A DNA stretch of 21,032 nt from Saccoglossus kowalevskii (Eukaryota > Hemichordata > Enteropneusta > Harrimaniidae): contig NW_003106593.1 of the NCBI RefSeq assembly GCF_000003605.2, positions 395,243-416,274 on the forward strand, given 5' to 3'. The notes beneath the pieces are model-generated. The model was not told the origin of the DNA, did no database searches, and worked only from the letters and a program-made list of their open reading frames with translations. The stretch's first letter is position 1. The number at the start of each line of letters is the position of its first letter. This document shows positions 2,170-18,266 of the stretch, piece after piece. Both the position numbers and the translations under genes were made by a program.

Positions 2170-3700
2170 ATGAAATGTGTCAGTTTTTAATCTTAACTTT
2201 TGTAACCTATTACAAAGTTTTTCAATATTTTTTTTCAGAAATGTGGATCAAGATTATCATGTCTATTTGGTCTGAATTAACAAAGTAACAAATAAATAAA
2301 AAATAAGCAATAATAATAATATGTATTACCGGTAATAATTTTCCATTGTCATGAATCTTTATTAAAAAAAATTGAAAGCATGATTGTAATGTAATACATT
2401 GCACCAATATTTATTTACATTCCAGTAACTGGTTACTGTTTTTCCAAGTTTTTTTTTATGATTCCTTTATATATTTATACATTAGTTGTTTTTCCCATTC
2501 CGTCCTTTTAAAACTAGTTACTGTTATTTTCACTGACATGTAATTTCACTATTTTGATGTTTTGAGCATATATTTACTGTGTTTTAATTTCACAAATTTG
2601 TCAAGGAAACAATGAGTTCCATTGTTATTTTACATGTTAACATGTATTTAATTTAGCAGATTTTACTTATTAATGAAAATAGAGAAATTAAAACCCAACA
2701 AATAATTAATGCCTTTACTGTAGTATAATTTCTTCTTCTGCATGATTTGTAAAATTTACTTTTTATTATTTTTAACATTAAATTTAAAAGGTTACTATTT
2801 TTATTATTATTGTAATTATCTATTTACATTTCAAAATTAAACATTTGCTAGTATAAACTAATTTTGTTGAAAGAAAAATCATATTTTGGTTTGCCTGTAA
2901 TGAAATGGGATTAATATATATTGTTGAAAGAATTCTGTCCATGTTATCATTGTTGTTGTTGTTGTTGTTGTTAACAATCTTGTCACTGCAAAGGTTTATA
3001 TGACAACCAGAACCAGGTCTCTCTACATTTAATGATGCGTGAAATGATACTTCTGACAATTCAACAAAAACCAAATGTACTTATAAATATATAAAGAAAT
3101 TATTAATGAAAAGTCATTCTAAAAAATGGCAACCGGATCCACATCTCTGCCAAAATCCGATTGGTCTTCGTGTCAAAAATGGAATGGCATTTTCATGTCA
3201 TTCATGGCTATCCGTACATGTTTTTTTTACCTTTAGGCTTGTTTAGATTATGTGTTTGTCATCTCTGGATATGTTGGGGTGGGGGGTTGATCAAATGATC
3301 AAGAACTTTGTTCTTTCATGCACTTGGGGAAAAATGAGAGACTGGAATGCTTAAATAATTGTGGTGTCTGCTTTGTGTTCAGATGAGGTTGCATTGTTGG
3401 TCATCACAGGTTGGTTCCTTAATTTGGGCTCCATTCTGTACTTTATTCAGCGCAGCTTGATTTTCAACAGTACACTTCTCGTTTTGTTACAGTCATACAG
3501 TCAGTCACATTTAGCACTGCCCTATCTGCCCTCACCAAACAGTCAGTTTACTACATCACCTACCAGAAAATCCGTGGAAATAATAAATTTCATTTATTAC
3601 TCGTTGGGATTAATTACAGTTTGAATTCGCTTTGATTCTTGTTTTGGCCGGGTAAATTTGCTCATTTTTTCACGAACTCATTTCTAATCTTTTCTTAGAT
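2170..3700. other. AT-rich intergenic stretch, no gene recognised
   Basis: No supported coding sequence on either strand. It contains a (TTG)7 microsatellite and, at 3581-3599, a perfect hairpin TAATAAAT-TTC-ATTTATTA. The open frame at 3361-3624 has no ATG start and no recognisable motif. The last part, roughly 3360-3700, may be the 5' non-coding region of the DIRS-like element that follows, but no terminal repeat could be identified. Confidence 0.5.
2950..2972. repeat. (TTG)7 microsatellite
   Basis: Seven uninterrupted TTG units plus TT. It encodes an Asn run on the minus strand in an otherwise unremarkable frame, so no coding meaning is inferred. Confidence 0.95.
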
Positions 3701-3706
3701 TGCATC

Positions 3707-4381
3707 ATGCCTAAGTCATTAAAAAAGACCGAGAATGTGCTTGCTAGACCTACGGCACATAAGTCGTATTCATCTTGCCAAAACTGGTAAGCTAAAAAGG
3801 GGATGTGTCAGATTCAATGAGTGAAAAATCTCTCTCTCCCCTTTGGTGGCCGAGATGAAGCTTGCCTCCTATCGCAAACTGAAGAAGATCTAGAGTTGCC
3901 ACGGTCGGACTCCCTCGTCAGTTTAGCAGGATCGACGACTGATGAAAGATTTTCACAGCCGTTCATCTCTGAGCTGACACAGGCGTTGGTCGCTACCTTG
4001 GAAGCACCGTTGGGTATTACCAAAGTGGGCATGCCTCGTTCCACGGCTCTTGCCAGGGGAATGGAGTTGCCAATCACTACGAGTACCGACACCGGAATAC
4101 AGAGTGTTCCTACTGGGGCACTGACATCGATGCCGAGTACCAAGGTAGGATCAGTACAGCCATTGCGGGCTGAAAGACTTCATCGACACTTACGCAACCC
4201 GGGTTGGTTGCGCAAATACAGGGACAGACCTTGTTGTCTTCCCCTACCGATGTTAGTCAGGGTGAAAGGGGCTCCTCCCATGGTGATGACATGGCTTGGA
4301 AAGCCTGGATGTTTAACTTGGCATTCAAAGGGCGGTGCTCCCTGTACCCCCTTCGCCAGAATTTGGGTCAGATGTGATTGA
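3707..4381 (+). pseudogene. DIRS-like ORF1 (putative gag) remnant
   Basis: The frame opens with ATG at 3707 (MPKSLKKTENVLARPTAHK) and is interrupted by TAA near 3788 and TGA near 3818. It continues in the same frame as an open stretch of about 186 codons to 4381. The content is polar, with an acidic patch (QTEEDLELPRSDS) and a Ser/Thr/Pro-rich part, as is usual for the poorly conserved ORF1 of DIRS elements. ORF1 products are thought to be capsid-like. Identification rests on position upstream of the RT, not on sequence similarity. After about 4260 a different frame may be the original one, so the true end is uncertain. Confidence 0.4.
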
Positions 4382-4688
4382 GGAGGCTTTATTACCACTG
4401 CTTCACCTAGCCGTGCATAGTGCCCCTACTTGTTACTCTGTGAGAGGGGTATGCAGCCATTTGGGGGGCACAGCTACCACTTCCTCGGCAAGGGTGGGGG
4501 GGGGAGTGCTTTGTCGTCTCTTGTCCCTTCCTTGTTGAGACAAACACAGGCTACCCAGCCAACCGGAGCCTTTGGACTCTTTTTCATTGGCGCTCTCCTC
4601 TCCCACTGCCGACGTGGAGACCACGTCTGTTGGCCAACTCCACTGGACACCTTGTGTGGCCCAGGCTGTGGAAAGTGAATAGAGGGCA

Positions 4689-5111
4689 ATGGAGGGGGGA
4701 TGGTACCCTTCGGGAGACAAGGACAAGAAGACTGATCCTGAATTTGGGTCAGTCCTGTTCCATGCCTTCCGTTGGGGGAGCTGGTACCCCATCGGGGCTA
4801 CAAAAACTGTCGACAGGTCCCTGGTTTGGGATACTCATGCAGTGCGACAGCCTTTTCTACTGGTTCTTCGCCCCAATTTCGGTACTCATGCCTTTGTTAA
4901 GGTGGGTGGGTGCGTGGATCGGGAAGGCCATGTTGCGTGGTCATTTGACCATCACAAGAGCCTGCAAGTGCATCAGGCACTGCAGGCAGAACTTAAACCC
5001 TCCTTTGCAGAATTGTTTTTTCTTGGTGTTAGAGCGGTTTGGTGGTTGCTGAGGACCAACGTATCAATAGGACCACTAAAAGTAATCATCCTTGTTGGCC
5101 AAGGTGGCTAG
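4689..5111 (+). pseudogene. Open remnant between ORF1 and RT of the DIRS-like element
   Basis: A 140-codon frame begins at ATG 4689 and ends at TAG 5109-5111. It contains QALQAELKPSFAELFFLGVRAV near its end. No catalytic motif is visible. Its place between the ORF1 remnant and the RT suggests the distal part of ORF1 or the N-terminal extension of the RT polyprotein. An overlapping frame over 4630-5052 is also open, and it is the less likely of the two because it lacks any conserved-looking tract. The function is not known. Confidence 0.3.
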
Positions 5112-5269
5112 CCCTTCTGGCCAGCAGTTCAAACCAAACCACAGGGTGGTTCAGGCAATAAGTCCCCCACTAGGATCTAAGTGCTTTTGGGGCCAGGGAG
5201 CAGTGAAGTCTCTTTGAAGGCTTCATCTGCTGCCTGGCCATGGATGGTGGTGCGACTCTGGGTCCCCCT

Positions 5270-6000
5270 CTGGAGTTCTCGGCAGGAGAGTTTCCGACCC
5301 ATGGACACTTGTAGTAGTGTCTCGGGGTGTATCAAATTCCTCTCCGGTCTCCTCTGACTCCTCATCCTTCCTCTGGTCTTCTGCTGAGGGACGAGGTCAA
5401 GGCAGAAATGGTACGGCAGGAAGTAGCCAGCCTTATGGAGTATACATGGACGATACACCTAGTGGAGAATCCCCTCATTTAGATCCATGGTTCTATTCTC
5501 ACATCTTCCTTGTTCCCAATAGTTTGAGGGGTGGCATCCAGTTATTGACCTTAGTTGGCTGGAAACACCGGCTTTGGCACTTCTGTCAGTGCACTCAGGC
5601 GATTTGCTGGTGTCGCTGGCTTTGATTGATGCATATTTCCACATCGCCATTCACCACTCATGCAGCCACTATCTCAGATTCCCCTTAGAGGACGAAGTTT
5701 ACGAGTTTACCGCCCTCCCTTTTGGTTTGTGCACAGCGCTGTACATCTCGACCAGGGTGCTAAGACTCAGCTGCTCTACCGGTCGTCGGTTTATCTGAAC
5801 CCATACCTCAACAACTGGTTATTACACAACTGAGACAGGGAGGTGTTAGCGGAGCATGTGCAATTAACGCAAACGATCCTCCATGAGTTGGGTTTTTTAA
5901 TAATATTCCTAAGTCCAACCCTATACAGTACCGCAACCTAGTTTCTGGGTATGCAGTTTGACACAGAGCAAGGGCTTGTCCGCCCCTTTCAGGCGCAGTG
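5270..6000 (+). pseudogene. DIRS-like reverse transcriptase, frameshifted, catalytic Asp lost
   Basis: Motifs appear in the correct order but in changing frames: YQIPLRSP and LRDEVKAEMVRQEV (about 5326-5430), FYSHIFLVP (about 5491), GWHPVIDLSWLETP (about 5529-5570), SLALIDAYFHI (about 5613), YEFTALPFGL (about 5701), YLNNWLL (about 5804), and FLGMQFDTEQGLVRP (about 5941-5985). DIRS RTs typically have DLKDAYFHI and YLDDWLL. Here the motif A Asp is Ala (GCT at 5619-5621) and both Asp of the YLDD box are Asn (AAC AAC at 5810-5815), so all three catalytic carboxylates are gone. At least four frameshifts and several stops are present. It once copied element RNA into DNA and is now inactive. Confidence 0.8.
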
Positions 6001-6279
6001 TGACATCTTGTGGAGCTCGCAAACCAACTCATGTCGACGGGATCGCCTTCTATGGGCGAACTGATGCGCCTTATTGGAAAAATGACTTCAGTTCATTATC
6101 TAGTTTCGTCAGCAGCTCTTCGGTCTCGTCTGATTCAGAGGTGCTTACTGGACCACAAGACCCACATGCGGAACCTGACATTCAGGGTTTAATTGTCGGA
6201 CCAAGCTTTGGCGGCCCTTTGTGGAAGGACACCCGAAACTTGGAAAGGAGACTGCCCCTAAATCTGACAGCTCCCTCAC

Positions 6280-6620
6280 TGACTTCTCCTTACAGATGCG
6301 TCGCTCCAAGGATGGTGCAGCCATCTGATGGACTTTCAAGTCCAAGGGACGTGGCAGACCACGTATGCAGGCCGCCACATCATTTGGCTGGAGTTTCAGA
6401 CCATCCTTCTGTCTCTGAAACTTTTTAAGGAGATCACACACCACCACAGAGTCCCCCATGTTGTCAAAGCTAGCTGAGGAGATCCTCCTTTAGTGCCTGG
6501 AGAACCAAGTGGAGCTAACGGCTCACCACCTTCTGGGGATACACCACAGCTTTGCAGATACCCTCTTGAAACGTATTCGGTTTCAGAACACTGAGTGGCA
6601 GATCCCCCAGTGGGTGGCAG
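6280..6620 (+). pseudogene. RNase H domain of the DIRS-like element, degraded
   Basis: One + strand frame reads LTDASLQGWCSHL (first acidic residue at 6295-6297), then HIIWLEFQTILLSLKLF (Glu at 6391-6393), then a stop near 6475. Further on it reads FADTLLKRIRFQNTEWQIP (final Asp at 6557-6559). This is the RNase H pattern of retroelements: TDAS..GW, the LE helix, and ADxLSR-like near the end, before the TEW segment typical of DIRS-type elements. The expected central Asp region is disrupted around 6460-6480. In an active element it removes the RNA strand during reverse transcription. This copy has stops and no complete frame. Confidence 0.75.
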
Positions 6621-6880
6621 ATCACCTTTTTCGTCTCTGAGATGAGCCCCAGAATGCCAATCTCCTGATGTACATGTCACTTCTCCCAGAGACGAGGATC
6701 TATCAATCTTTTGGAGTCACATGGACGCTTATGCCTTTCCATCCTTCCAACTGGTGCAACAAGTATTAGAGAATCTGTGACTCAAGCCCACCTGTCTTCT
6801 GACACTGGTGGTGCCCAATTTGCCTGTGAAGGTCCCAATGTTGCTGGACCGATCGCCATCCCAAACCTCACTAACATAGT
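6621..6880 (+). pseudogene. Conserved post-RNase H tract of DIRS-like element
   Basis: After RNase H one frame reads, with stops, NANLLMYMSLLPE, then WSHMDAYAFPSFQLVQQVLENL (about 6703-6777), then LTLVVPNLPVKVPMLL (about 6800-6850). DIRS elements show the related order 'P.yvSP..d', 'W..l.aYAFPP..L...vl', 'l..vaP.wp...w...ll' in the region where a Dam-like methyltransferase-related domain is described. I see no intact methyltransferase motif. The tract ends near 6880, and the recombinase C-terminus begins almost at once. Confidence 0.6.
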
Positions 6881-6890
6881 TAGCACAGAG

Positions 6891-7175
6891 GACCATCAGG
6901 AACGGATTCTATGTCCTGTTCAAGCTCTGAGCTGGTACTTCGATCGTACCAAGGTGTCTTGAGGCAGCGAGAAGGGTATGTTTGTCTGCTAACAGCAGGG
7001 CAAGCAAGTCCGCCCTGCTCCTAGTTTGGAACATCACCAGGTGAGGGCACATGAAGTGTGCTGAGTAACCAACTCGTTGGCCTTGATGTCTGGTGCCTCT
7101 CTCGAACAGGTACTTCAAGCAGGGTTCTGGAGATCTCAGAATGTCTTCATTAAGTATTACCTGAGAGACCTTTGC
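6891..7175 (+). pseudogene. Tyrosine recombinase C-terminal remnant of DIRS-like element
   Basis: The frame reads HQERILCPVQALSWYFDRT (6894-6950), stops at 6959-6961, then reads VRAHEVC-stop (7041-7064), ASLEQVLQAGFWRSQ (about 7096-7140) and VFIKYYLRDL (about 7143-7172). These match the DIRS recombinase series LCPVRAL..YL.RT, RAHD-x-R, GaxLe.Il.AgyWrs, and F..fYLrd. The second Tyr (TAC 7158-7160) is the probable nucleophile. The HxxR arginine appears as Cys (TGC 7059-7061) next to a TGA stop, so the enzyme is dead. Only the C-terminal part is present. The N-terminal and central recombinase regions, including the first catalytic Arg, are missing. The enzyme normally inserts the circular cDNA into the genome. 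Confidence 0.8.
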
Positions 7176-7813
7176 TTGAGGAACAGAGGGTTGAGGAAGA
7201 TTCTCTAACCACTGTCCAATATGGCACCTGTAAGTGCAAGTCCTGGCCATTCAGTTGGCATGGTGAACACAGGTGGTAACCCTGAGGGACAAGTGGCTGA
7301 TGGTGAGTTTAGCAGATTCCCTGACTGCTGTCCAAGAAAGTGCAAGTGATCAGCCTAGCAGACTGGAAATACTCAAAGTTATACATGGTGTTGAGATAAG
7401 AGCTCAGCCTCAGGCCAAGAAGAATTATATGCAACACTTGTCTGTACCAAAATTTAAGACCCATGATTTTGTTGTGATCCGTGACAGTTTATGAAAATTA
7501 CAATTACAGGACTTGAGCGTGAAACGGTCATTTAGGCATATTGCCGATAAACAGTGGTGGTGAATGGTAAGTTGAATATAACCATAGTTTCACAATATAA
7601 TTTTTTTATTATACCAAAGCTGTCATTAGATTAGGTTTTATCATTATTGAAATTCCACCTGAATCTAAAGTTTACACTCATTGTCTTGAAAATTGAACAC
7701 AATCAGTTGGCCTCAGCCAAGTTGCTACCAAAAAAAACAATGTCATTGCTACATAAAGTATATGAAAACTCTATCTTCATTTTTGTTTAATTCTGCATCA
7801 TTCCATGCACCAA

Positions 7814-10283: not shown

Positions 10284-10588
10284 TTAAAGGGCGGTGGTCG
10301 TCGCGCTGCGCATGTGCGACATTTGTGTTGATAAACATTGATTTTCCCACAATCCAATGCGCTCGTCTAATTGAAATCACAAGTATGCTGTTTGACCTGG
10401 ATGCAACTTGTCCTAATTACCACCGGTGACTCCTTCGATACCTTCCAATCACTTGAAAATACCTGATTAAAGCTTAGTACGTCTCAGTTTGTACTCATTG
10501 ATCTGCGAAAAGTCAAAGTCGCCATATTTGTTTATATGAAACCATATATCTCGCGCATGCGTGGCGTGGCGCGACGATTAACGCCTTA
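10284..10588 (+). mobile_element. TTAA-flanked MITE, copy 1 (about 305 bp)
   Basis: The left end is TTAA (10284-10287) followed by AGGGCGGTGGTCGTCGCG. The right end (about 10560-10588) is an eroded inverted version containing GCGACGATTAACGCC, preceded by CGCGCATGCGTGG, which mirrors the CTGCGCATGTGCG near the left end. The interior matches the locus at 16080-16345 almost end to end, which shows that it is a dispersed repeat. It has no coding capacity. A TTAA target with short terminal inverted repeats suggests a piggyBac-type non-autonomous element. However, the tips do not start with the CCC common in that superfamily, so the class is uncertain. Confidence 0.75.
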
Positions 10589-11208
10589 CAAATATAATCT
10601 CATCTTTAAAAAAAGAAAACAAGACTAAAGTAACATAAAATGCGATGTGAAAGCTAAGGGTCGAGTAGATGGGAAGTATAGAAACATGACGCACAACGCA
10701 CATAATTCTGGGAAATGGTCTATAAAATAATGAGTGAGAGGCCACCAGAGAGAGGCTGGCGACGTATTTGACATTTCGCCCACCTTTCTTAATCTTACAC
10801 AATAGAAATCATAGCAGTTCGACAATTGGATAGTGACACCCTTTGTAATTATTTAATTTAATCACTGTGCTCGAATACAAAATAGCCGGTGATTATTATA
10901 AACATGATTGACGTTGATTACTCTAAATGCAAGAAGTTAGTGTGGTCGTCGCCCTACACACCATTATTTTGACGACACATCTTTTTAATACATTACAATA
11001 GAAGCTGTACCTTTGATAGGCTTTAAATTATAGTTTCAGCAAGGGATGTCCTCGAATTCTCGAAATTCGCCAAAATCATTTTTATATATGATCATGCACA
11101 CACTTCACCATAAAGTAGGATATGGAATTATACTATCATCATACTTGACTGGGTTTGTTTTATATTCGGAAACATCGGAAAACAAAGGAACTATTTCATA
11201 CATCTGTC
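10589..11208. other. Intergenic, no gene; possible eroded TTAA-element end at 10937
   Basis: No supported gene. At 10937-10952 the sequence TTAGTGTGGTCGTCGC resembles the left tip of the TTAA elements (TTAAAGGGCGGTGGTCGTCGC) with a few bases lost, and is followed by CCCTACACACC. It could be a solitary eroded terminus, but a matching right end was not found. Confidence 0.35.
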
Positions 11209-11401
11209 TTAAAGGCGGTGGTCGTAAAACAGTGCTTCGAATTTCATGTAAAACAGTGCTTTCTAGCCAAATGGAATTATTATGACCACGAATATTTCAC
11301 TTCACCGGCAGATAATGCAATAATAATCAAAATAGCGCAATTTAACCCAAAATTACGAAAATTTTGAAAATCACCACACAACTACGTATTGCAGTATCTT
11401 T

Positions 11402-11510
11402 GTTGTTGGGACCACTCGGAGATAATATTATCTCCCCTGTTGTTGGGACCACTCAGGGATGCTATTATCTCTCTTGTTGTTGGGACCACTCAGGAATAAG
11501 GGCAGGGATA
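11402..11510. repeat. Left subterminal minisatellite, 37-bp period
   Basis: Units start with TTGTTGGGACCACTC and contain or descend from the palindrome GGAGATAATATTATCTCC (perfect at 11418-11435). There are about two and a half units; the second has GATGCTATTATCTC in place of the palindrome. The reversed counterpart lies at 11853-12012. Confidence 0.85.
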
Positions 11511-11852
11511 TTATTTGGTTTACAAGTTGTTCAATGGGATTGTTTATAGGTATATTTATAAGGTAATGGAAAACCATGTTCAGTATACTAGTAGACACAT
11601 ATACACGGTACTCGGTTACATTTTGTACGTTTAAGTTTTATTATAATACAGCAACCTGTTGAAACATCTTTGGTCACCATAGCACTAACAGCCTATGCCG
11701 ACACTTGCTTCAGTTTGGTTGTGTTTTCTCTCTTATGCTGAGCGATTTTCGTAGATTGATCTGTCAAAATTAAAACGCATAAAATATATAATACAACTCA
11801 ACTATGGACTTTTACAAAACTGGGTGTTATTTGCATCACCGTAGAAAAAATA

Positions 11853-12012
11853 TTATCTCTCTGGTCCCATGTATTGTCGACAACTAGGGAGATAATATTA
11901 TCTCATCTTCATCTTCCCGAGGTATTGGTCATCAAGGTCACGAGAAATGAAGGGATAATATTATTCCCGAGTGATCACAGCAACAAGGGAGATAATATTA
12001 TCCTTCAGTGGT
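11853..12012. repeat. Right subterminal minisatellite, inverted relative to left
   Basis: Contains GAGATAATATTATCTC (11889-11904), GGGATAATATTATTCCC (11952-11968) and GGAGATAATATTATCC (about 11988-12003), with spacers such as GAGTGATCACAGCAACAA that correspond to the reverse complement of the left-array spacer TTGTTGGGACCACTC. The array is more diverged than the left one. Confidence 0.8.
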
Positions 12013-12231
12013 CCAGTGATAGTAATACAAGTTATGTAGTGAATACAAAAAATTGTGGTAATTTTAGTCAAATTGTGCTGTTTCCATTATTTTTGCATGT
12101 TCTCCTGGTGAAGTGAATTATTTACGGTCATAATAATACCATGTAGAAAGTAGTGTTGTAAATAAACAATGTTTTACACGCGTTGAGTCCCAAATCGAAC
12201 AGGACGCGGCGCTACGACCACCGCCCTTTAA

Positions 12232-14920
12232 TAAGAGATGAACAATTTAACAGATTTATGTTAAAATGGAAAATAAGGCTATCAGAAAATATCATAAAGC
12301 TCTAAATATTCAGGTTTGGCCACCTGAATGGAGTGGCTCTCCCCCGAAAACAAACAAACATTTTTAGCGAACTTCGACAATTTGAGAACACCCCTAAATC
12401 ACCAAACAAAAGTAAATGTTGCACGCTGCTAATGTTGAACTGTCGAGCTGAATCGATTTCCGCTGTATCCTGTAATATTAATATTATATGTAATATTATA
12501 TCTCAGACTGAATTCTCAACGTGTCTCAAGATGCGTAAATGCCAGTGTAAAGCCCATGGCGACAATGGCAGGTTATTTATGACCATAATAACACCACTTG
12601 CTCCAACAGTTTCAGTTTCGCCGAATCATACCTTCCAGAGGATATTTGTTGTCATTTAGAGAAGACTCCGTTGCCATGAGTACTAAATAGCATTTAAAAA
12701 AAAACTCGCACACACATTTACCGTTACAGAATGATGAATTGCGATTGATGTCGGGTAAGTCACTCACGTCGTCCTGTTCGGATGGCAGTGGTTTTCGTTT
12801 TCTATGTTTTTTTCCCGCATATAGTATATATTTGTATTCCGAATGACTAGCTTGGTGGACTAGTTGGTATAGTGAGGGTTTATATTGCATACGGCACATA
12901 AGTGTGTAATTATTCTTTTCGAAAACCCCGATATCACTTCATGTACTACGTGGTTGTCAAGCTTTTTGTTTTGTTATTGGATTTGTTGGTGGATTGTGTC
13001 ATCGAATGGTGTAAGTAGTTTGTTTCATGTTTCTGGACTTGATAAACTTAATAGATTTACGGTTGGGTATGTTATTTCCACTTAAATAATCGTAAAGGTG
13101 CTTGGTCAGTCATCGCGACGCGATTATTATTGAGAAAACGCTAAATATCCATATGATAATGCATTTATGTGATAGTCGCAGTGTATCTAAACACATGCTT
13201 TATATCGGAAAAAAATAGACGCGAATTGTTCAAACGCATCTACCCACCGTAACAAAACGCGAAGAGACACTTGCTGAACACTTCAACAGTTACCATCAGA
13301 ATATCACTCATATTCACGGGACTATCGTTCAAACACAATAGGGAATTACAATTAGCGATTGAAAATATAAGTATGTTATCAAAATTTTACCAGCGTTTCT
13401 CTCCAAATTAAGTGTTCCAACATCACTAAAAATGTACGTTACTATTGTATTGTCTGGAAATATCATCTATAATACTATCTAGTCACTGTTAGTGCGCGTA
13501 TATTACAGGCCATATGAAACCACCCTTTTGGGCTGTTACCATGCCGTAATGAGGTACGCGTCTCCTTACAGTGGCTAGGCGCATTGCCACGGTCCATTGC
13601 GTGGTTATATAAGTTATATGTTCGTATAATGTGCGTGTAATTTATACTAATAGAAGAAAATAGTAAAAAGTGGAACAGTAGTACATTTCGAGTCTCCGAT
13701 ATGTGACATTTCAGAGATACGATATAATTCCTGTGTTCATACAATTGTTTAAACATGGCAGGTACATCAAATTTTAAAATGAATTTTCCGCCTTGTAAAC
13801 TTCAAAAATGCGTGTAAAAATTCGAATTGTGTCTTTTTTGTTCAGATATTTTATTTATTAGATGTATTTATTATGCAAGAGGTTAGTATGTTCTAGAAAT
13901 TTATGGCAGGTATGTTTAGCATATGCTATTAATTATTATCGTCGCATGAATTTGTTTTGTAAATAGGCTTTCATTGACTTTCATTTCCGGGTGATGGAGT
14001 TACTAACTGACGCAAAAACATCGACTCTATTTAAAGCTATACTGTGGATTTGTTTGTGTTTATTTTTCTTCGCATGAGCTGTGATGCAAAAAAAGGTTCA
14101 ATTACATGCAGTTATGACATTGCTTGCTGTGTGCTGGACATATATATTTATTTCTTCAATGATTCTTTCCGCCGTATTTTCATTCTAACTGTTATACTCT
14201 TGTTGGCTCTATATTGTAACATTTTGTTTCAGTGTGTTGACAGCTACTGGACTATTTACCTCTTTAATTGGTAATTTATTTTAACCATTCAGATGCCTGA
14301 CATATTTGAAGGCACTTATTTAGGTCTGATCCGCTTCTCTCAGCAGTCTCTCAGTTGTGAGTAGCTGATACCACAAATTAGTCTGTTCCTAATGCCAGTG
14401 AGTTATTTTTGTAAATGTAGCGAAATTACATGTTACAGCAAGGATCTTCAAATCAGATCTTTACTTGTCCAATAGTTCATTTGCTTCCTGGGTTCGAGTA
14501 AAGAAAACGTAATGCTTAACAATATATTACATTCTTTTTTTGTGTCAGCGCCCGCAGTCGATAAACGACCGACGGCAGATGAATACTTTCTGTACACCAG
14601 TGTTCTCATATGCATATATAATTTTTGCAGTGCTCCTATAAGCAGGATTTTGCTAGTATCTACAGATCATTTTCTGTGGGTGTACCATATACGGGAGCTT
14701 GACAGATCATATTGCAGTGTTGTTATCGATATAAGGTGTTCTTGAGTTAGTATTAAAACAAAAACTACATGTATAGTTGTGTCTAACAGAAGCCATCGAG
14801 ATAATATACCCACACTTTCGGATACATTTCCTGTGTTCGACTTATTTGCTTACCCTGAGCAAAATCAACTCTGTGACATTATAAACCCCAAAAGTTGCTT
14901 CTTATCCTCGGCATGTCGTC
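12232..14920. other. Gene-poor stretch, no gene recognised
   Basis: No domain, splice-supported exon or RNA gene could be identified on either strand. Frames of 60-108 codons occur but look like chance openings in AT-rich DNA. Minor structures seen are a short palindrome ATCGCG-A-CGCGAT at 13112-13124 and an AT-only palindromic patch near 12475-12500. The minus-strand frame over 13475-13756 has a denser, more protein-like start-proximal part but no recognisable motif. Confidence 0.45.
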
Positions 14921-14927
14921 ACTTCTT

Positions 14928-14956
14928 TCCTTCTTCCTTCTTCTTCTTTCTTCCCT
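14928..14956. repeat. Polypyrimidine tract (CTT-rich)
   Basis: A nearly pure C/T run of CTT, CTTT and CCTT units on the + strand. It introduces the pyrimidine-rich degenerate repeat region that follows. It could form triplex DNA, but nothing else is implied. Confidence 0.7.
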
Positions 14957-15410
14957 GATTCAACAAGTCCTGTTCATCCAGTTATTTACAACTTTACAAC
15001 TATATTCTGTATCTCTGATTTACTGTCAGCGTTATACTTAGTGTTATTTTTCCTGTTACTTTCTCACAATTACCGTTATTACCGTTATTCTTTTATCACT
15101 GTTTCTGTTACTTTCTCCTACTTATGGTTTACGTAAATTATTGTTATCATCACTGTTCTTGTTCCGAATATTTACTCCAACTCATGCTTACCCCGTGTTT
15201 ACTGTCCTTATAACTCACCGCTCTTGTTTCTGTTACTTACTCATAGTTATAGTTACCGTGTCTTATCGGTATACGCTGTCACTGCTATTGTAACTCACTG
15301 ATTCTATTATGTTACTTTCTTCTACTCAAACATGCCATTCTTTCACGTGATTGTAGCTCGCTGTTCTTGTCCGGTTACTTATTCCTACTTATTGTTAGTA
15401 TTATTGTAAT

Positions 15411-15915
15411 TGTCACACGCAACGTAATATTACCGTAATTGGTATAGTACAGGTGTGATGGTTCAAATACCAAAATGGCAACAGTAACAGAAAGACTTCC
15501 CTGGCGGCGATGATAAAATACGAACACGGAGCCAACAGATGAGGTTTCAACTGGTACTGGTATTATTATACTCTGCAAACATCAAGTACAATAACTCGGT
15601 AAAACTCCAAACCTCCAATAACTAGATACTTAAACTCCACCACAATTCAACGAGATCTCCGATCTGATCTCAGTGCTGAACAACTCCCCTATATATACCC
15701 GCACTGTCTATAAATAGACCATTACATCAGCATACATAATGAGTCTTGAACTTACTACCAATTTCTAGAATGTTCCATTAACTTCCATTGCCTCCTACAG
15801 TGTTCTATTACCTATTCAACCATTTTCTAAAAAATATAGAATATTCCACCCAGACACAGTACGATTCTAGAACATTCTCAGTGACACGGAAGTGGTAAAT
15901 AAGTCGTATGCGACA
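15411..15915 (-). mobile_element. Solo LTR, 505 bp, 5-bp target duplication GTAAT
   Basis: The element begins TGTCACACGC (15411) and ends TATGCGACA (15915), giving the TG...CA termini of LTRs with a short inverted TGTC/GACA tip. It is flanked on both sides by GTAAT (15406-15410 and 15916-15920), a 5-bp target-site duplication as made by retroelement DDE integrases. It interrupts a degenerate repeat that resumes on the other side. There is no internal domain and no second LTR, so it is a solo LTR left by recombination. Orientation is taken from the promoter elements: enhancer-like sites then TATA read on the minus strand, placing U3 at the high-coordinate end. No clear polyadenylation signal was seen in the presumed R region. 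The family is not recognised. Confidence 0.85.
15690..15877 (-). promoter_or_regulatory. LTR promoter with heat-shock-element-like cluster and TATA box
   Basis: Two perfect three-unit heat-shock elements of the form TTCnnGAAnnTTC are present: TTCTAGAACATTC at 15865-15877 and TTCTAGAATGTTC at 15763-15775. Between them lies a two-unit GAATATTC (15839-15846). Read on the minus strand they lie upstream of TATATATA (15690-15697) and of a palindromic TATA-like GTCTATAAATAGAC (15706-15719). The predicted start would be near 15660. The three-unit inverted nGAAn array is the established binding site of HSF. That HSF drives this LTR is inference from the sites, their spacing of about 65 bp from the TATA and their position in U3. 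Confidence 0.6.
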
Positions 15916-16079
15916 GTAATAGTTATCAATTGTTTCCTGTTCCTGTTACTTACTCCTGCGTATGCTTACAGCTACCTGTTGTTATTGACCCGCACACGCT
16001 CTGGATAACACTACGATAAAGACTTTCCGTTTTCGGCATTATGAAATACTTTCGGGAGAAAAAGAAAGATAATTTATAA

Positions 16080-16345
16080 TTAAAGGGCGGTGGTCGTCGC
16101 AATGTGCATGTTCGACATTTGTGTTGATAAACATTGATTTCCCCACAATCCAATACACTCTTCTAATGGAAATCACAAGTATGAGGTTTGACCTGGGCGC
16201 GACTTGCCCTAATTATCGCCGTTGACTCCTTCGATACCTTCCAATCACCTAAAAAATACCTAATTACAGCTTGGTAACGTCTCAGTTTGTACTCGTTGAT
16301 GTGCGTAACTGTCAAAGTCGCCATCTTTGTTGATATGAGAGCCAT
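16080..16345 (+). mobile_element. TTAA-flanked MITE, copy 2 (right end missing)
   Basis: TTAA (16080-16083) is followed by AGGGCGGTGGTCGTCGC, and then by about 260 bp closely matching copy 1 at 10284-10550, including TTGTGTTGATAAACATTGATT and CTCCTTCGATACCTTCCAATC. The match ends around the shared CCATAT at 16345, and no right terminal inverted repeat follows. It is either 3'-truncated or interrupted. It has the same orientation as copy 1 and no coding capacity. Confidence 0.8.
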
Positions 16346-16510
16346 ATGTACTGTATTTTTCTGCATAGAAACCAAAGAATTTCACGATGTCGAAAATAAA
16401 AAGTTTTTATCGCAGTGTTTAGATCCTGTAATTTACTCCAATTATTAACTAACTGATTTTATATTTTTTCGAGGTCAGAATTTCCATAACTGTACCACGA
16501 CTAAAATGGC

Positions 16511-16763
16511 AAGAACACGTCGTGGCGTAATACGTGTAACAGGCAGCAAATAATACGTGGTTGCAGTGAAGTAATATACTAGAAATGAACAGAAAAATAC
16601 ATGGTTGTTGCGACGTATTACAAGTAATATACGACAATAGAAGATAACACGTGGTTAGTTACACTTATGAAAAATACTAGTAATGAGCAGAATACAATAC
16701 ATGTTGTATGGACACAATACATGTAACGTTTAACTTGTGCAGAAGAAATAATACATATATACC
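16511..16763. repeat. Degenerate minisatellite, about 48-bp period
   Basis: Related units start near 16551 (TAATACGTGGTTGCAG), 16597 (ATACATGGTTGTTGCG), 16645 (AACACGTGGTTAGTT) and 16695 (CAATACATGTTGTATGG). Partial units lie at 16511 and 16741. Each unit carries an ATACRTGG word, a TAATATAC-like word and an ATGARCAGAA-like end. The copies are strongly diverged. It lies between the MITE and the GPCR gene, about 530 bp upstream of the GPCR start. Confidence 0.6.
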
Positions 16764-17294
16764 CAATATAAATCCTTGGTCAACGCAGTTAGGATACTGT
16801 TGCATCATTGGAGAATCTGGTCGGCAAGAAGTCAGTGAAGTATAATTAGGTTTCATACCAGAATTGGAATTTGTAAACAGGAAATGTGTTCCAGACTTTT
16901 ATATGAGAAAACATTAGTTTTGTGATTGAAATTCCAGCGAAAACCATCTGGAGTGAGCAGTCATGATCAGTTGGATCAACCCGGGGATCAACCAGTGTAG
17001 TTGAATTGGCTTCAACTTGTGTATTTTCAACATTGTAATGGTGCTGTTAACAATTTGATTTTATAAACTATCACCCGTTTTAATTTTGTAAAATGTTGCT
17101 GCTTTACTTATTAGTTCTATGTGTGAAGTAGTCCTGCTCTTCAAGTTTATACATTGTCGTCCATGGGGAGTTTAATTAATTCTAATATAACGAGATACAT
17201 GTAATGGGACAACTCGTCGTATTTCGTATTAAAACGGGCTAGTGTACTGTAAATCATTTACACATGCACGTGTGGCATATTGTGGCACAGAAAA
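16764..17294 (+). promoter_or_regulatory. Upstream region of the GPCR gene, promoter not resolved
   Basis: This is the 530 bp before the GPCR start codon. No canonical TATA plus initiator arrangement stands out. A CACGTG E-box lies in the CATGCACGTGTGG tract at about 17264-17276. A 5' UTR intron cannot be excluded: TGTGGCACAG ends at 17290, five bases before the ATG, and could be a weak 3' splice site. Nothing else is supported. Confidence 0.25.
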
Positions 17295-18266
17295 ATGAAC
17301 GCCACTAACGGATCATACATTAATGACGTCATCATTTCGAGTAGTTACAGTTTCGGATGGGTCAATGCATGTAAAACGCTGATGGGTATTTTAGGCTTGT
17401 TTGGAAATGGTCTCGTGTGTCTCGTGATTTTACGAGTAAAGAAACTGCAAACCGTTACAAATGCGTTGATCTCAAGCTTGGCAGTGTCCGATTTCCTGAC
17501 GTCAGTTTTCATGATCCCTTTCCCGCACCCAAATCGGATACCTTCGGGATTCGTCGGCGAGTTAGCCTGTCGACTGTATATATCCGGATTTTTGTTGTTT
17601 ATGTGCTTTGTTGCTTCTGTGTTCAATCTTATAGCAGTAACTTACGAACGTTATTTAGCCGTGGTGCACCCTCTCAAATATAAAATTCACTTTACTACAG
17701 CAAAGCTAAAAATTATAATCCCGATAATATGGCTGCTGTCAATCGTTCCCCAGAGCTTCTGTTTTTATGTGTACCATGTACAGGACGGTATGTGTATTCT
17801 AGAATGGCCCATCAGTGTTCAGTTTCAAATATTTGTTGGAACTGGGCTTTTCTTTTCTACATATTTTTTACCATTGATGGCGATCTTCGCCGCTTATCTG
17901 CGCATGTTTAGCGTTATGAACGCGCGCGCCTTGGCGCAGAATAGGAACGAGATCGAGGCGAGCCTTCTGAAATCCCGCAGGAAGATGACCAAAATGTTAT
18001 TAATTGTCGTTGTCACATTCACTCTGTGCTGGGCTCCGAATCAGTTTATGTTTTTGGCCTATAATTTCGGCATCACTATCGACTGGACGAGCTTTTATTA
18101 CAATTTTGTGATTATAATTGCTTTTGCCAATTCTTGTATGAATCCATTCATATACGCGTTTAAAATGAAGCAGTTTCGGAAAGGATTTCGAAGTGTCATA
18201 TGTTGCCGTCCTAGTATAGCAGTTGGGACTTTGCCCTCAATAAAAACGACTACTGCAACTGTATAG
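17295..18266 (+). CDS. Class A (rhodopsin-like) GPCR, invertebrate peptide-receptor-like, intronless
   Basis: A complete 323-residue receptor in one exon. ATG 17295 is chosen because it directly precedes two N-glycosylation sequons (N2-A-T, N5-G-S) in a short extracellular N-terminus; there is no signal peptide. Landmarks seen: TM1 GLFGNGL (N38), TM2 LAVSD (D66), TM3 Cys92 and ERY (118-120), TM4 W146, extracellular loop 2 GMC (Cys167) followed by WP, TM5 P193, TM6 CWAPNQ (245-250), TM7 NSCMNPFIY (279-287), then helix 8 FRKGFR and a likely palmitoylated C303-C304. It should couple to G proteins at the plasma membrane. The TM3 Cys to Arg119 spacing is 27, two more than usual. The CWAPNQFMF and NSCMNPFIYAFK tracts and the short loop 3 resemble large invertebrate orphan families often annotated as galanin- or allatostatin-like. 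Ligand unknown. No frameshift or missing motif. Confidence 0.93.
   Translation: MNATNGSYINDVIISSSYSFGWVNACKTLMGILGLFGNGLVCLVILRVKKLQTVTNALISSLAVSDFLTSVFMIPFPHPNRIPSGFVGELACRLYISGFLLFMCFVASVFNLIAVTYERYLAVVHPLKYKIHFTTAKLKIIIPIIWLLSIVPQSFCFYVYHVQDGMCILEWPISVQFQIFVGTGLFFSTYFLPLMAIFAAYLRMFSVMNARALAQNRNEIEASLLKSRRKMTKMLLIVVVTFTLCWAPNQFMFLAYNFGITIDWTSFYYNFVIIIAFANSCMNPFIYAFKMKQFRKGFRSVICCRPSIAVGTLPSIKTTTATV

Follow-up and report, generated by a model that had tools for sequence, protein, structure and literature searches.

The window analysed here, a stretch of 21,032 nucleotides from Saccoglossus kowalevskii, contains a solo long terminal repeat (LTR) at 15411–15915, which is 505 bp long, begins TGTC and ends GACA, and has the minus strand as its sense strand, as judged from the primer-binding site (PBS) and polypurine tract (PPT) of its relatives. 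Exact copies of the target-site duplication GTAAT stand at 15406–15410 and 15916–15920; because they abut both ends of the LTR, no internal region adjoins this copy. The TG…CA termini and the 5-bp flank duplication described in a sequence-only reading of this DNA are thus exact to the base. On the plus strand, a rhodopsin-family GPCR gene with a complete 7tm_1 match occupies a single frame at 17295–18266, and its first ATG, at 17295, lies 1.38 kb from the LTR and on the opposite strand, agreeing with the earlier estimate of about 1.4 kb. A six-frame search of 12900–17250 gave no Pfam match beside the LTR at E 0.1.

Several other features were observed in the window. A dispersed repeat starting TTAAAGGGCGGTGGTCGTCGC is present at 10284–10540 and 16080–16340, the latter copy just to the right of the LTR, and the two copies are 89% identical over 176 nt. 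The region 10284–12231 has inverted ends (the second at 12205–12231) with TTAA and could be a DNA transposon; within it lie imperfect inverted repeats at 11271–11511 and 11880–12142 and a nested 37-bp tandem repeat. At 1664–2158, a 99-bp unit is repeated in tandem in 4.7 copies with 97% match, its length being divisible by three and an open frame running across it. In a G+C-rich island at 3800–7250 (50–55% in 4001–7000 versus 25–42% elsewhere), several long open frames overlap one another on the two strands; a six-frame search of 3500–7400 gave no Pfam match. Finally, a minus-strand open frame at 513–932 gave a match to zf-RVT below the cut-off (E 0.061), and presumably resembles the end of a non-LTR reverse transcriptase.

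Identity of the element

The sequence-only reading had taken the termini and the duplication as its evidence for an LTR. Both are real, but by themselves they weigh little: the window holds 309 TG…CA pairs with an exact 5-bp repeat at spacings of 100–2000 bp, 74 of them at 300–700 bp, and we therefore dropped termini plus duplication alone as proof. The stricter TGTC…GACA ends with a 5-bp repeat occur in two pairs (100–2000 bp) and in one (300–700 bp). What makes the identification firm is a pair of independent tests, the restoration of the empty site and the sharing of both ends by genomic copies.

The LTR interrupts a degenerate array of ~60-bp units at 15040–15410 and 15921–15990, which plain autocorrelation missed and anchor spacing revealed, with unit anchors at 15053, 15105, 15165, 15230, 15309 and 15372, and then at 15943. 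When 510 bp are taken out, the last spacing becomes 61 bp, compared with 52–79 bp for the other units. The joined flanks align across the junction to the rest of the array with a score of 70; none of 500 shuffles exceeded 52, and each intact junction scored 47. Since at least 15 neighbouring resume points (within ~15 bases) score 71–77, above the 70 of the true junction, this alignment backs the insertion itself, while the base-exact ends of the element rest on its genomic copies.

We searched the host genome (572,110,611 bases in 4830 contigs) with the whole LTR. Of 597 first-look candidates the best 40 were scored, one of which was the window itself; the other 39 copies are 95–98% identical and align from base 1–5 to base 504–505. 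Ends that failed to coincide with 15411/15915 had been named beforehand as a possible refuter, and the scored genomic copies agree with the window copy at both ends. Of the 39, 30 are flanked by an exact 5-bp target duplication, and two more have one mismatch. Among the remaining seven, three are followed by a PBS and two are preceded by a PPT, so that five abut internal sequence; the rest, L025 and L038, have two mismatches in the duplication. In addition, a 32-base core-promoter pattern of the LTR was found at 472 places in the genome with up to three mismatches, as opposed to none for the reversed control.

Relatives with internal sequence, for which the sequence-only reading had proposed a genome search, were recovered. 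The primer site TCTGGGGGCTCGTCCGGGA, which we take to be of the tRNA-Pro type, stands directly after the LTR in three copies; the PBS TGGGGGCTCGTCCGGGA and the PPT AGAGGGGAGGCA were each found at three loci. At locus L062, two LTRs enclose a 410-bp internal remnant with TAATG on both sides; the pair differs at 5 of 488 aligned positions, and both heat-shock elements are present in each LTR. In another copy, an open frame ~0.7 kb inside the element matches the SCAN domain (E 3.4e-8; 33.6 bits, above the cut-off of 27; at one locus), and this gag piece also has a weak zinc knuckle match. The internal regions of three of the five element loci fetched are mostly N. These data establish the family as an LTR retrotransposon, probably of the Ty3/gypsy type, and 15411–15915 as a solo LTR, probably what remained after the two LTRs of one such element recombined. 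The SCAN-type gag piece suggests the Gmr1-like group, in which integrase precedes reverse transcriptase, and is a lead to the clade from the gag of one locus alone.

Short inverted ends and a 5-bp duplication also fit some DNA transposons, and we considered whether the element could be a non-autonomous one with TGT…ACA ends. This identity is refuted by relatives in which near-identical LTRs enclose or adjoin a PBS, a PPT and a gag piece, and we give it practically no credence. Outside the host, a core-promoter 17-mer had no matches in viral contigs; for the element, phage records gave only two short matches (E 6) and an Rfam search gave none. Two further observations concern other loci. Same-strand core-promoter matches lie 4.7 kb apart on C768 (181281/185958) and C1001 (436364/441128), and are possible two-LTR copies. 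A 333-aa minus-strand frame at L062:4035–5036 has a TNP-like RNase H N-terminal domain (E 3.5e-27) and probably comes from a DNA transposon.

Heat-shock elements in the LTR

HSF trimers bind three alternating nGAAn units. The LTR contains two perfect three-unit heat-shock elements (HSEs), TTCTAGAATGTTC at 15763–15775 and TTCTAGAACATTC at 15865–15877 (both as read on the plus strand), and between them a two-unit site, GAATATTC, at 15839–15846, confirming the two perfect arrays and the half-length one described earlier. They are the only perfect TTCnnGAAnnTTC arrays in the whole window, and both contain the palindrome TTCTAGAA. A near-HSE array outside the LTR, GTATGTTCTAGAAATTTA at 13886–13903, has two perfect and two partial units.

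The TATA box, TATATATA at 15690–15697 on the minus strand, is palindromic, so the orientation of the LTR rests on the PBS and PPT of its relatives. The primer site fixes the sense strand as the minus strand of the window, which places the HSEs, including three or more adjacent nGAAn units, within U3 and upstream of the TATA box, as the sequence-only reading had proposed. From the position of the TATA box and of an initiator-like TCAGATC at 15661–15667 (minus strand), U3 is predicted to span 15666–15915 on that strand, and transcription to start at the initiator's A, at 15665, which is 32 bases away from the beginning of the TATA box. Relative to this start, the two three-unit HSEs would lie at about −98 to −110 and −200 to −212. 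A possible poly(A) signal, AATAAT at 15562–15567 (minus strand), would end R; the R/U5 division, like the start at 15665, is a prediction. The LTR contains 15 CpGs.

Two or more HSE trimers arose in 1 of 40,000 first-order simulations of the LTR and in 4 of 40,000 under a second-order model trained on the window, and of 448 alternating-trinucleotide patterns the HSE alone is found twice in the LTR. On the other hand, some repeated gapped 9-mer of the HSE shape is present in 85% of 3000 simulated LTRs, and the actual LTR has two such repeated words besides the HSE. Because repeated words of this kind are common, the weight of the pair rests on the prior hypothesis and on the other copies of the family.

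Heat-shock elements across the family

Three sets of copies were compared. Among the 39 whole-LTR copies, sites 1 and 2 are each intact in 36, both are intact together in 33, and every copy retains at least one. A second set was picked by the R-U5 half alone, so that U3 played no part in the choice; 40 of its 560 candidates were scored, giving 30 loci for 41 rows. Once the window copy and five loci that are truncated or broken by N are excluded, this set has 24 copies, of which 20 carry two HSEs and 4 carry one. Eight of the 24 also belong to the whole-LTR set, and these already-counted copies, the window and the five truncated loci were dropped from the 30 before pooling. The pool of 56 distinct copies (39 whole-LTR copies, the window and 16 new ones from the R-U5 set) comprises 47 with both HSEs, 9 with one and none without.

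The third set was defined by exact matches to the 32-base core promoter, which are probably younger copies, with 100 places among the matches listed. Thirty-three of these lie on contigs up to C291, where the listed HSE sites end: two TTCTAGAAnnTTC sites lie upstream in 24, one in 4 and none in 5. Of the five, two stop aligning to the LTR at 346 and 378, two are interrupted by N, and the fifth, L134, has a readable U3 with a single mismatch in each HSE; in two of the cut-off copies, the first site has a mismatch. Copies lacking the HSEs had been a proposed refutation; the copies examined did not refute the idea, and two HSEs are a trait of the family.

By length, the 56 copies fall into 45 long (at least 504 bp), 9 middle and 2 short forms (462 and 465 bp), the middle class taking in L087 and L090, which are cut at one end by the alignment. 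The two-unit site varies, reading TCTAGAATATTC in 23 copies, TATAGAATATTC in 21 and something else or deleted in 12; the middle and short forms have in common a 10-column deletion at 15831–15841 that removes it, and in the short forms another ~30 bp are missing between the HSEs. Relative to the long form, three substitutions are fixed in the middle form and five in the short form (two copies only), and no fixed subfamily difference falls on the 26 positions of the two perfect HSEs, which is suggestive and no more, given how few the fixed differences are.

The sequence-only reading had asked whether the HSE trinucleotides are more conserved than the rest of U3, and here no significant difference emerged. 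Over non-CpG, non-diagnostic U3 columns of the 56 distinct copies, 9 of 1002 HSE core cells were changed versus 172 of 11,404 elsewhere in U3 (Fisher P = 0.13), a test with masks placed at random gave P = 0.16 for HSE conservation, and in the 39-copy whole-LTR set the HSE masks ranked 99 of 214. With a median divergence from the family majority of only 2% across the 56 copies, the family is young and the test is accordingly of low power; solo copies would in any case decay neutrally. The conservation test thus does not demonstrate selection on the HSEs.

Share of the genome's heat-shock elements

We also asked what share of the genome's HSEs the family holds. The TTCTAGAAnnTTC pattern occurs 1164 times genome-wide (552 + 612), against 141 for the reversed pattern. 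Among the matches listed, 72 of the first 100 TTCTAGAAnnTTC sites can be grouped into 36 pairs, each on one strand with TG preceding CA and with spacings of 62–105 bp in 35 pairs and 781 bp in one, while the 28 unpaired sites divide into 12 inside the LTR and 16 outside. The family therefore holds 84 of these 100 listed sites, 4 of the 36 pairs having been aligned to the LTR and the other 32 assigned by the pair signature.

As TTCTAGAAnnTTC was derived from the LTR itself, the general pattern TTCnnGAAnnTTC, with 5009 occurrences genome-wide (2493 + 2516; reversed control, 1829), provides the fair figure. Extrapolating 84% to all 1164 sites gives ~978 family sites, or 19.5% of 5009, and a hand count of 100 TTCnnGAAnnTTC rows among the matches listed placed 20 in the family; the first 100 rows of either pattern run in contig order and are not a random sample. 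By extrapolation, then, the family carries about a fifth of the perfect three-unit HSEs, on 0.05% of the genome if ~560 copies of 505 bp are taken from the number of first-look candidates. The remaining trimers, estimated at ~4030, are about twofold above the reversed control of 1829. No general HSE trimer was found in 138,293 non-LTR flank bases, which do not allow the background to be judged. By hand count, TTCTCGAATTTTC recurs 8 times in 100 general HSE trimers among the matches listed, and a second repeat family may carry an HSE.

Discussion

We favour, with a probability of roughly 0.7, the reading that 15411–15915 is a solo LTR of a probably Ty3/gypsy-type element whose U3 works as an HSF-driven, stress-switched promoter. 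The U3 is a likely HSF-driven promoter because two three-unit sites stand before a TATA box and initiator. HSF trimers would bind the two perfect HSEs ~100 and 200 bp upstream of the TATA box and initiator, and under proteotoxic stress the HSF-bound U3 would switch on minus-strand transcription. The HSF binding and the heat-induced transcription are inferred. Solo copies, including the one in the window, might possibly make nearby genes, the GPCR gene for example, responsive to heat. An HSF DNA-binding-domain frame is present in the host genome (E 7.2e-23), and silencing of the LTR is possible, given its 15 CpGs. That such a mechanism works in animals is indicated by bovine leukaemia virus, in which HSF1 activates the LTR through an HSE in the reporter assays described in part of the source available (PMC10236774).

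Real HSF sites need not serve the heat response. Inheritance of a retrotransposon requires germ-line expression, and the HSEs could be used for expression in the germ line or early development instead, a purpose that two strong sites would suit as well as heat. The sources, as far as they were available, describe HSF roles beyond the heat shock response, including in development (PMC6927752), and a basal activity of the bovine leukaemia virus LTR that HSF1 raises in transfected cells (PMC10236774). The three-unit type of array is, however, the one tied to the heat induction of COPIA elements in the portion available of that study (PMC5059998), and we judge a developmental use unlikely. Less likely still is an accident of the founder, passed on to its copies and bound by HSF to no effect. 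In its favour are the non-significant conservation difference and the frequency of repeated gapped 9-mers in simulated LTRs, and exact HSE pairs also turn up in phages and bacteria, in sequence with no relation to the LTR: the pair pattern is present in 5 viral and 9 prokaryote stretches, whose alignments to the LTR cover 24 bp at most. One near-identical stretch, with the 115-bp span also seen in the window, is common to four of the five viral ones, and several of the others resemble tandem repeats; we accordingly took the equal span for coincidence. Against an accident, two HSEs arose in only 1 of 40,000 simulations, and both HSEs carry the palindrome TTCTAGAA, stand upstream of the TATA box and persist across the length subfamilies. 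Separately, a repeated run of TTCTAGAA palindromes was noted in a viral contig (L003:14318–14430).

In addition to acting as an HSF-driven promoter of its own element, the LTR in the window might by now drive the GPCR gene, as its enhancer or as an alternative promoter, and be retained for this purpose. Its HSEs lie ~1.4–1.5 kb upstream of the ATG at 17295, and GPCR genes controlled by Helitron-borne HSEs are described for C. elegans in the part available of PMC6927752, a parallel that carries no weight as evidence at this particular locus. Against this use, the LTR is separated from the gene by another dispersed repeat, and the window copy is no nearer the family majority than other copies (0.0257 versus a median of 0.0200). 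We consider this use very unlikely.

Mobile elements bearing HSEs are known from plants, from Helitrons and from one animal retrovirus, and the new part here is the family's share of the genome's HSEs. The following comparisons draw on the portions of the sources available. ONSEN/COPIA78 and other heat-responsive COPIA elements of Brassicaceae have HSE clusters in the LTR, as here (PMC3907296, PMC5059998). In the Brassicaceae elements, three-unit sites correlate with heat induction and activation is HSF-dependent, whereas for the present family a heat response is predicted; such sites (3P, three alternating units) are classed as moderately responsive, yet predicted 3P sites accompany up to hundred-fold induction (PMC5059998). 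ONSEN is a plant Ty1/copia element with a four-unit site, while the present family is probably of the Ty3/gypsy type with three-unit sites (PMC3907296, PMC5059998). ONSEN is without CG sites (PMC3907296), in contrast to the 15 CpGs here, and the ONSEN fragments and solo LTRs of A. thaliana are without functional HSEs (PMC3907296, PMC5059998), in contrast to the solo LTRs here, which keep theirs.

Among animals, the Caenorhabditis Helitrons are a transposon group that spreads HSEs, also near GPCR genes, as here; they are DNA transposons, and HSF-1 binding and induction of nearby genes have been shown for them (PMC6927752), whereas for this family they are proposed. The family would work like ONSEN and, as a spreader of HSEs, like these Helitrons. 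DIRS-1 of Dictyostelium is a tyrosine-recombinase element. It resembles the present family in having a heat-shock promoter in retroelement terminal repeats, but those repeats are inverted and its host is an amoeba (cited in PMC2685390). In bovine leukaemia virus, too, HSF1 acts on an HSE located within the U3 of an animal LTR, but this is an infectious cattle retrovirus with a single site of another form and no dispersed genomic family (PMC10236774). Cryptococcus TCN3 and TCN12 have LTRs with putative HSEs, two in TCN3; they are fungal and known for mobilisation at 37 °C, and a role of HSF is proposed only (PMC12810828). Gmr1-like Ty3/gypsy elements have a SCAN-type gag capsid, and the available portions of their descriptions do not mention HSEs (PMC4592553, PMC4131045); the present family was compared with them by its gag piece alone. 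In the open-access literature, outside which most subscription papers lie, we found no endogenous LTR retrotransposon family of an animal for which HSEs are described, and the available parts of PMC13104882, PMC8896005 and PMC7231272 contain nothing on HSEs in LTRs.

In the literature found, HSE-bearing LTR retrotransposons have so far been worked out in plants, and the present family adds an animal example. Its copies, at hundreds of genomic locations, are young and near-identical, and those examined are mostly solo LTRs with intact HSEs. The element may be activated by heat, and it could also make genes in the vicinity of its copies responsive to heat. We tentatively entertain a wider role, possible rather than probable, in which this one LTR family is a main distributor of HSEs and its hundreds of copies act as ready-made HSF enhancers or promoters that draw new genes, perhaps the GPCR gene among them, into the heat-shock response. 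The family allows a direct test of the long-standing question whether a stress-activated retrotransposon rewires an animal's stress response by scattering HSEs, as its copies, with two, one or no intact HSE and in several length subfamilies, form a natural series for the paired comparison of nearby genes with and without heat.
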